Part shown: positions 61,501-63,953 of the stretch, piece after piece | How the letters are laid out: every line of letters begins with the position of its first letter | Numbering within the stretch: the first letter of the stretch is position 1 | DNA from: Branchiostoma floridae | Taxonomy: Eukaryota; Chordata; Leptocardii; Amphioxiformes; Branchiostomatidae | Assembly (NCBI RefSeq): GCF_000003815.2 | Contig: NC_049979.1 | Location: 23,541,085 to 23,605,084 of the forward strand | Length of the DNA: 64,000 nucleotides | Reading direction: 5' to 3' | Notes under the pieces: model-generated | Seen by the model: only the letters and a program-made list of their open reading frames with translations | What the model was told of the DNA's origin: nothing | Databases searched by the model: none | Program-made: the position numbers and the translations under genes

Positions 61501-63953
61501 AGTGTTTGTAGGCCACCAAGCCATGTTGTATAGGGTAGATTCTCTTGTGAAAAATATGTACAACACTCTGTTGATGTTTGAGTTTGGGTGACCATTCAGC
61601 TATCAATAGTATATAGCCAATGCTAGTCAACTGTGTGAGTGTTATTGACCCTGTGAAATTCAGTATTTTTAAGCTAGAGTTAATGCTGTAAATGTTAAGA
61701 CATACCTGTATTGTCAAGCACCAGTTAATAGTTACGATGACTAGATTTGGTTGGTATTACATGATATATGCCCTTGATCTGTGTAAGTGGTGATGGGTGT
61801 GTCAGCTAACAGCCTAACAGATAATGTGTGTGCCCTGTAGATTATGAACACTGGATTGGCTTAACCAAAGCATCCTCAGTGCCTTTTGTGATTCCAACAC
61901 TTATCACTAATGTCAATCAGATAATATTAAAAACCAATAAGATGTTTGATGCTAACATGTACCTTTATAAGCTGGTTCATGTTTATAACTGCACACAAGT
62001 GATGTCCCCTAACTTGAAACAGTTTTTATCTAGACCACGCTTGATACCATGGCCAGACGTTTTTTTATTTATGTCTCCGGGGCCTTCAACTTTGACATAC
62101 TACCCAGAATGTATCATGATGTGCATGTGTAGTCTAAACCATGAACCAGCTTATCCCAGCTAATTGTGGGCATGATGCAGGCCTGTCCAATAGTTTTCCT
62201 CCCAGCTCCCCACTACCAGGGCTGTATAACCCTCCTACCTTGCTATTGGCTCCCTGCATGAGCTGTGGGTAAGCGCATGTTGTGTTCCTGCAGGTGCATG
62301 CTATAGTGGGCGTGCTGGGCGATGACACAGACCCCATGGTGACAGTCATGAAGCTTGAAAAAGCCCCCAAGGAATCATACGCAGACATAGGAGGCTTGGA
62401 TCAGCAGATCCAGGAGATCAAGGTTTGTTTGTTTGTTTGTTTGTTGCTCTGGCCAGGTGCAGGCCATTGTGGGGGTGTTGGGTGACGACACAGACCCCAT
62501 GGTGTCGGTTATGAAGCTGGAATCGGCACCGTCTGAGACGTACGCTGACATTGGGGGTCTGGACCACCAGATCATGGAGATCAAGGTAGTCACAGTAGGC
62601 ATGAGCTGGCTCATAGTCATACTCTAAAGGGGAAATGTTTGTGGGAATGTAGTTTTGTAGTAGGGAGGAAATGGAGAGGTCACAATGGTTTCATGTTTGC
62701 AGACTGCCAGTTGAATCAAGGGGTTAGGCATGAAGTACAAAAATTTTCCTGGTGGTTTTAAGGTCGTGTTGTTTATATCACAGCTAAAAGTGCAAACATA
62801 AATCCCCTGCAAACATTTCTCCTTTTATAGATATTGATTTGTTTTCTGCAGTAGAAATTCTGCTTGGACTGATGCAATGAATGCAATGACAAAGGTCTTG
62901 ATGTCTTGGGAACTTTGCTATAATGTTACTATTGTTAGCTGAATATTGATCACGTGCTATCCAGATTCATAGAACTTTGAAGTTATAGAATCAAATTCAA
63001 GTCTTGCTTTCACCAAATTCATGCAGTTTACATTGTATTTGTCACATTTCATACTAATATGATACAAGCCTTTTGAAAAAAATAGTGACATCAAGATATT
63101 TTTTTTCCTCCACCATTAGGAGTCGGTGGAGCTGCCCCTGACTCACCCAGAGTACTATGAAGAGATGGGCATCAAACCTCCCAAGGGAGTCATCCTGTAT
63201 GGTGCTCCTGGAACAGGTAAGCTTCCCATGTGCCAAATCTTACATTTAGATTACTTGGCTGGAATACTAAGTGTTGATGCAGAATACCAAGTGTTGTATA
63301 CTTCCTACCGTCCTGAGGAAATACACATTCATTTTGAAACCAGGTGTGAAAATTTGGTGCTGTGAAACAAAAAATTGTAAGAACATCAATTGAAATATCT
63401 TAATGTGGTCCTCAATTTTTGATAGCAGTATATGCAGGGCATATAAAGTACATTTTAATTATTGTATGGAAGCCAGTGTGATACAACATAACAATAACTG
63501 TTGAAGCCTGTGGTGTACCATAATGTACAGATGTACAGATGAGTACAGAACACTTGTAATGCATTGTATTGAACATTGTGAAGGCTTGGATGTGTGCAGT
63601 TGAATTTCTAGTATGAGTCAGGATGCTTGTTCAGCACATTGTGAATTTTTTGTATGTTATTTGCAGGTAAAACTCTCCTGGCCAAGGCAGTGGCCAACCA
63701 GACATCAGCCACCTTCCTGAGAGTCGTCGGGTCGGAGTTGATCCAGAAGTACCTCGGGGACGGACCCAAGCTGGTGCGCGAGCTGTTCAGAGTGGCGGAG
63801 GAACACGCCCCGTCCATCGTCTTCATCGACGAGATCGACGCGGTGGGTACGAAGCGGTACGAGTCCAACTCCGGCGGGGAACGTGAGATCCAGCGGACCA
63901 TGCTGGAGCTGCTGAACCAGCTGGACGGGTTTGACTCACGGGGGGATGTCAAG
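55546..63953 (+). CDS. PSMC1: 26S proteasome ATPase Rpt2 (PSMC1), 5' part, with a duplicated exon 6; runs off the right edge
   Basis: Rpt2 is one of six AAA ATPases in the base of the 19S proteasome cap. Exons: 55546-55548 (ATG alone), 59042-59098, 59526-59622, 60584-60708, 61174-61359, 62294-62422 (6a) or 62457-62585 (6b), 63120-63216, 63667-63953. Phases join, giving about 327 of ~440 residues. A Gly-rich, Lys-rich N-terminus begins MGQNQSGG; the Gly at position 2 would suit N-myristoylation. A coiled coil ([17 protein letters not shown]) follows, then the OB fold, then the AAA domain with Walker A GAPGTGKT, split by an intron (human has GPPGTGKT), and Walker [10 protein letters not shown]. 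The last exon ends at ...FDSRGDVK, and the remaining AAA parts lie beyond the window. Divergent from FNTB. Confidence 0.96.
56262..56740. mobile_element. TTAA-flanked MITE, 479 bp, copy 1 in PSMC1 intron 1
   Basis: Ends GGTCTCATTCCGG and CCGGAACGAGACC are inverted repeats, flanked by TTAA at 56,258-56,261 and 56,741-56,744. The short ORF inside has no known motif. Confidence 0.92.
57648..57760 (+). other. G-rich tracts with quadruplex potential in PSMC1 intron 1
   Basis: G runs of 9 or more at about 57,652 and 57,736, followed by CTGGGGGGGGC, all on the transcribed strand's sense side. Together they provide four or more G-tracts within 30 nt at 57,734-57,757. Confidence 0.6.
58443..58921. 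mobile_element. TTAA-flanked MITE, 479 bp, copy 2 in PSMC1 intron 1
   Basis: Same length and orientation as the copy at 56,262-56,740, with only about five to seven base differences seen by eye. Own TTAA flanks are at 58,439-58,442 and 58,922-58,925, so it is a separate insertion and not part of a larger segmental duplication. Right end reads CCGGAAGGAGACC. Confidence 0.92.
59330..59402 (-). mobile_element. tRNA-like SINE head in PSMC1 intron 2
   Basis: On the minus strand: TGGCTCATTGGTTAGAGTGG (A box), then AACCAGAGGTTGTGGTTTCA (B-box region). It lacks matching acceptor-stem halves, so it is not a functional tRNA gene. Confidence 0.5.
59967..60580 (+). repeat. 46-bp minisatellite built from the PSMC1 exon 4 splice acceptor region
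   Basis: About eleven copies of a unit with AGTATTAGCATGTGGTACAG and AGAGACTGTTGCTGTGT followed by CCCCCCAG. The last unit ends in the true acceptor of exon 4 (60,583). One internal copy near 60,200-60,212 also carries the first exon bases, CCCCCCAGTGACC. Hence the array repeats a functional 3' splice signal. Confidence 0.93.
62294..62422 (+). other. PSMC1: PSMC1 exon 6a of a tandem duplicated pair
   Basis: A 129-nt exon, 43 codons, phase 0 at both ends, with acceptor TTCCTGCAG/ and donor AAG/GTTTGT. It encodes [16 protein letters not shown] then [18 protein letters not shown] and ends QQIQEIK. It covers the last strands of the OB fold and the linker into the AAA domain. It keeps the ancestral His2 and Lys23 also seen in human PSMC1. 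Confidence 0.95.
62457..62585 (+). other. PSMC1: PSMC1 exon 6b of a tandem duplicated pair
   Basis: A 129-nt exon with the same phase as 6a, acceptor CTCTGGCCAG/ and donor AAG/GTAGTC. It encodes [16 protein letters not shown] then [18 protein letters not shown] and ends HQIMEIK. It differs from 6a at 7 of 43 residues. The 34 nt between the two exons begins with repeated GTTT units. Splicing 6a to 6b would require removing a 34-nt intron; including both would add 43 residues in frame. Confidence 0.93.
62622..62831. mobile_element. MITE directly downstream of PSMC1 exon 6b
   Basis: Ends CTAAAGGGGAAATGTTTG and CAAACATTTCTCCTTTTATAG are imperfect inverted repeats. It shares the GTGGTTTTAAGGT phrase with the element at 39,504-39,690. 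It begins about 36 bp after exon 6b. Confidence 0.7.

Follow-up and report, generated by a model that had tools for sequence, protein, structure and literature searches.

The window analysed is a stretch of 64,000 nt of the Branchiostoma floridae genome (contig NC_049979.1, positions 23,541,085 to 23,605,084). On the forward strand it carries coding exons 2 to 8 of PSMC1 (59042-63953), the gene for the proteasomal ATPase Rpt2, which extends beyond the window end. The corresponding public protein is the NCBI entry '26S proteasome regulatory subunit 4 isoform X2 [Branchiostoma floridae]' (P0002, 441 aa). It has the domains expected of Rpt2, with Pfam matches to the proteasomal OB (residues 110-164), AAA (223-356) and lid (378-422) families, and its best solved-structure match is the 26S proteasome regulatory subunit 4 (882.5 bits, residues 1-441). 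Coding exon 5 (61174-61359, donor AAG/GTAACA) and coding exon 7 (63120-63216) are followed and preceded, respectively, by a duplicated exon 6, the subject of this report.

Repeats are also found in and near the gene. An element of ∼487 bp, with ends TTAAGGTCTC...GAGACCTTAA, was recognised by eye in two almost identical copies (56258-56744 and 58439-58925) that lie upstream of PSMC1 exon 2; the ORF pieces of the copies are 93-100% identical, and we take the element to resemble a non-autonomous TTAA-targeting transposon of the piggyBac type. Intron 3 includes a 46-bp minisatellite (60015-60583), the unit of which contains CCCCCCAG, similar to the exon 4 acceptor located at the minisatellite end (60564-60583). 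That acceptor is preceded by many decoy acceptors, with the closest upstream AG just 19 nt from it. Elsewhere in the window, where a Pfam scan covered 8 of 1269 ORF pieces, a 408-aa open frame on the reverse strand (26641-27864) contains a reverse transcriptase domain (PF00078, E 1e-23) and is a retroelement remnant. The longest open frame (1042 aa, 47136-50261, reverse strand) has no Pfam match at E 0.001. An Rpp20/POP7-like open frame (PF12328, Alba) is present at 8097-8555 on the forward strand, and a FUT8-like piece at 12662-13015 on the reverse strand matches SH3.

The two versions of exon 6, designated 6a (62294-62422) and 6b (62457-62585), are each 129 nt long, begin and end in phase 0 and encode 43 residues. 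They are separated by 34 nt (62423-62456). Both have open frames bordered by an AG acceptor and a GT donor, which in 6b is AAG/GTAGTC. Recalculation returned the coordinates, lengths, phase and gap reported in an earlier reading of this DNA made without database searches (the sequence-only reading), and its statement that both copies have intact borders and join in frame to exons 5 and 7 also held. The window product in which exons 5, 6b and 7 are joined is identical to residues 2-327 of P0002 (326/326), and P0002 contains 6b without 6a. The 6b form is therefore already present in the automated NCBI annotation, where alternative models are usually backed by transcripts. For the 6a form, the 120 matches listed in one protein search include none at 100%.

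Copies 6a and 6b share 98 of their 129 nt and 36 of their 43 residues, and Tandem Repeats Finder reports 62291-62587 as a repeat of period 163 with a score of 377. The flanks are unalike: ungapped comparison of 50 nt on each side gives only 14 matches upstream and 10 downstream, and the similarity ends at the exon borders. Such similarity is far from chance. As adjacent exons of similar sequence, equal length and the same frame, the two have features by which mutually exclusive clusters are recognised. Among the rows listed in a self-comparison of ORF pieces (at least 30 aa, same strand, less than 3 kb apart; at least 41 rows), there are the 6a/6b pair and repeats, and no second PSMC1 exon pair.

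The nucleotide differences fall mainly at third codon positions (21 of 31), and the NG86 estimates (dN 0.113, dS 2.14) indicate that synonymous sites are saturated. In 20,000 runs with 31 random neutral changes made to 6a, an average of 19.9 residues changed and never fewer than 12, compared with 7 observed. If 6b alone is taken as neutral, with 16 of the differences on its branch, 1.3% of runs stay at or below 7 residue changes, a share that counts against the main reading, and 0.02% at or below 5. Both simulations are rough in that they start from exon 6a and use no outgroup. Saturated synonymous sites together with so few residue changes suggest an old duplication whose coding sequence has been kept, and the pair thus looks both old and constrained at the protein level. 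At 84% identity, 6a is no nearer to 6b than are the most similar of the other homologues, which reach up to 86% across the full exon, a comparison that gives no date for the duplication.

Exon 6 encodes residues 157-199 in P0002 numbering, spanning the end of the OB match and preceding the AAA match. The seven changes from 6a to 6b (H158Q, T173S, K179S, K182S, S184T, Q193H and Q196M) all map within it, in agreement with the prediction from the bare sequence that two Rpt2 versions would differ at the end of the OB fold and the entry to the AAA domain. Homologues were gathered in three protein searches (295, 4887 and 171 matches, the best 120 of each being used). These gave 339 proteins, one of which was dropped, leaving 338 with the exon aligned over at least 35 residues, including the window's own 6a peptide (P0001). 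All seven 6b residues occur only in P0002 among these 338, and the next two proteins have three; proteins entered this sample through their resemblance to 6a or 6b, which makes it an uneven survey of animals, and the database is clustered at 90% identity and may hide 6b forms of other lancelets, so that this distribution is not evidence of absence. Residue 179 is Lys in 336 of the homologues, Arg in one and Ser only in P0002. Position 158 is His in 257 and Gln only in P0002, with other residues in 6 and no residue in 74. In an alignment of 50 sequences, H158, K179 and Q196 each reach a conservation of 90% or more. Judged by these alignments, 6b substitutes nearly invariant residues such as Lys179, replaced by Ser, and 6a is the canonical form since it keeps all three, even if its own K182 (4/338) and S184 (48/338) are uncommon. 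An AlphaFold2 model from the 50-sequence alignment (mean pLDDT 48, pTM 0.30) was too poor to place the seven differences.

The 34-nt gap combines the 6a donor, a (TTTG)5 tract and the 6b acceptor, and its sole adenosine is that of the final AG, a point absent from the sequence-only reading. Of 263 GT-N30-AG stretches of this length on the forward strand of the window, only the gap and one at 47138 have an interior free of A. Runs of 32 nt free of A are rare, not unique, starting at 6 of 63,969 positions on the forward strand and 46 on the reverse strand. The U1 site of 6a (62420-62428, AAG/GTTTGT) overlaps the tract of 6b. On a donor matrix, 6b scores lowest of the eight donors scored (0.55) and 6a second lowest (1.45), the other six ranging from 2.78 to 7.35; that the two weakest donors are those of 6a and 6b is as expected for regulated exons.

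Because the gap has no usable A, the branch-point adenosine of 6b must sit in exon 6a or above. Applying the AG-exclusion rule with a 12-nt tolerance and a simple branch-point matrix, the predicted zone is the end of exon 6a (62412-62421), with five allowed adenosines. The best of these, A62420, lies within the U1 site of 6a, at a distance of 36 nt from the base immediately preceding 6b. Its motif is weak (1.34), like the top motifs for exon 4 (1.19) and exon 6a (1.60), and the weakness of the allowed motifs counts against our main reading. When AG exclusion is ignored, the best motifs are higher up in 6a, at 62342 (3.77) and at 62348 and 62377 (3.14 each). The zone at 62412-62421 is preferred because AGs separate those three from the 6b acceptor, which is a rule of thumb. 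The 6b branch point is thus probably inside exon 6a, near the 6a donor. Non-adenosine branch points exist, and one in a 34-nt intron is, strictly, conceivable.

The sequence-only reading had held that 34 nt is very likely too short to be spliced, by steric collision of the signals. A minimum donor-to-branch distance of ∼50 nt is given in PMC6692369 and PMC7969005, and the former describes distances of 35 or 46 nt that abolished assembly or splicing in vitro. In the sterically enforced subclass the branch point of the downstream exon either lies less than ∼50 nt from the donor of the upstream one or is not located beyond that donor, and the gap, free of A but for its AG, has this arrangement with its predicted branch point. 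Since human introns of 43-65 nt are reported to be spliced, some with poor branch sites (PMC8363638), short length alone cannot settle the exclusion of 6a-6b joining. The exclusivity proposed earlier is supported, with length as its weaker ground; the absent branch-point adenosine is the better argument. Exclusive use in tissue, a regulated choice and a functional difference between the forms are what we infer from this arrangement.

Other means of selection were also considered. With either copy alone, exons 2 to 8 give an open product of 978 nt. Double inclusion (1107 nt) and double skipping (849 nt) both leave the frame intact, each being divisible by 3, so that NMD cannot police the choice between 6a and 6b and is ruled out as the enforcer; joint inclusion does not break the frame as it does in the frame-shift subclass. 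Sterics leave the in-frame double skipping, which the sequence-only reading had not raised, unblocked, and other means are needed to avoid it. Incompatibility of U2 and U12 sites showed no sign: by eye, 8/8 donors begin with GT and 8/8 acceptors end with AG, and none of the 8 PSMC1 donors resembles the U12 consensus. The predicted fold of 62240-62620 is little better than that of shuffled sequences (z -1.36, 7 of 100 shuffles at least as good), so that a choice made through competing RNA structures gains no support, and Rfam at gathering thresholds has 0 matches within the window.

Mutually exclusive use is the reading best supported by the pair, and several other accounts of the same data were weighed against it. 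Exon 6b might be a decaying or barely used duplicate in a gene that in practice makes the 6a protein, isoform X2 being a minor by-product. Its departures from the family at nearly invariant residues and its place at the bottom of the donor scores would fit such a history, but synonymous saturation alongside just 7 residue changes, without a stop or frameshift and with intact borders, would not be expected of a decaying copy, nor would use by a public isoform model, and we regard decay as unlikely. The assembler might instead have placed two alleles or copies in tandem. Lancelets are highly heterozygous, and some public PSMC1 models carry repeated segments: by eye, P0122, P0123, P0124 and P0125 (P0122 with only part of the exon-6 region) have internal repeats in identical copies of other parts, which look like assembly or model errors. 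With 31 differences in 129 nt, synonymous saturation and flanks that do not resemble each other, the two exons are unlike alleles, and the longest of the contigs behind isoform X2 measures 35 Mb, making an artefact hardly credible.

It is equally far-fetched that 6a and 6b are ordinary exons included together, doubling this segment of Rpt2. The frame would be kept, but the gap provides no branch-point A, the public model listed has 441 aa and a single copy, and a doubled OB-AAA junction is very unlikely to fit the hexamer. Much harder to set aside is the view that the exons are real and mutually exclusive while their proteins work alike, the pair being kept by drift or for splicing reasons and not as a proteasome switch. 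The two forms share 36 of 43 residues, and T173S, S184T and the change at K182, itself rare in the family, are mild or at variable sites, whereas H158Q, K179S and Q196M alter the three columns of high conservation, K179 being present in 336 of 338 homologues. We consider equivalent proteins a real possibility, somewhat short of an even one. Taken together, the evidence makes it likely that 6a and 6b are tandem mutually exclusive exons of PSMC1 in B. floridae, probably operating by the mechanism proposed below.

In the mechanism proposed for these exclusive exons, the branch point of 6b would lie within the terminal part of exon 6a. U2 at this exonic branch site and U2AF on the (TTTG)5 tract would then compete with U1 at the 6a donor for the same bases. 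Where U1 wins, 6a would be defined and joined to exon 7, and 6b would leave with the intron; where U2AF and U2 win, 6a would be treated as intron and 6b used. By analogy with known cases, the ratio may be set by U-rich RNA binders, with TIA-1-like proteins favouring 6a and PUF60- or U2AF-like proteins favouring 6b, or by CELF-like proteins, which UGUU repeats would suit. Reciprocal control over a shared U-rich tract, as in OGDH, is our best guess for PSMC1. The two Rpt2 forms would give rise to two kinds of 26S base.

As a motor subunit, Rpt2 is both essential and highly conserved, and an animal is generally taken to have a single form of it. Here the animal can probably make two forms, with one exon copy spliced at a time. 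An alternative exon kept at the junction of the OB ring and the ATPase ring suggests selection for a second form, and the pair constitutes a natural set of variants for testing the role of that junction. More tentatively, and with a probability somewhat short of even, lancelets may run two kinds of 26S proteasome through an Rpt2 splice switch, with H158Q, K179S and Q196M changing how the motor behaves or which partners it chooses in a particular tissue or stage. The switch would be a 34-nt element with overlapping donor, pyrimidine tract and an exonic branch point at its edge, in which one binding event decides. As very compact enforced exclusion without a branch-point adenosine, the gap would allow the old steric model to be tested easily in a minigene.

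No such switch in PSMC1 of other animals was known to the sequence-only reading. The titles and abstract beginnings of open-licence PMC articles yielded no treatment of alternative Rpt2/PSMC1 exons in animals, nor of 6a/6b, and no earlier Rpt2 example, but the 6b form itself was already in automated public annotation. Sterically enforced exclusive exons are well known as a kind; what is new is their occurrence in this gene and this animal group, and a gap that lacks a branch-point A.

Alternative proteasome subunits within one animal are familiar from the immunoproteasome and testis-specific forms. Those come from separate genes, whereas both PSMC1 forms would come from one gene by splicing. 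In alpha-tropomyosin and alpha-actinin, exclusion arises because the branch point sits too near the upstream donor; these are muscle genes with longer intervening introns, whereas PSMC1 is a housekeeping proteasome ATPase gene with a 34-nt gap. Both are named as cases of mutually exclusive exons in PMC7969005 and PMC6692369. Human mutually exclusive clusters likewise consist of neighbouring, similar exons in the same frame, and 57 of 629 (9%) have potential steric interference (PMC5740500); PSMC or proteasome gene names have 0 occurrences in the main text of that article. The closest parallel is vertebrate OGDH, in which exons 4a and 4b are also close together, with a 5′ splice site too near the branch point and a U-rich tract between (PMC7969005). 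There, TIA-1/TIAR on the tract favour the upstream donor and PUF60 the downstream acceptor, and a reporter yielded either exon, never both or none (PMC7969005). The OGDH branch points are 25-41 nt inside the intervening intron (PMC7969005), whereas the PSMC1 gap has no usable A and its branch point is predicted to lie in the upstream exon.
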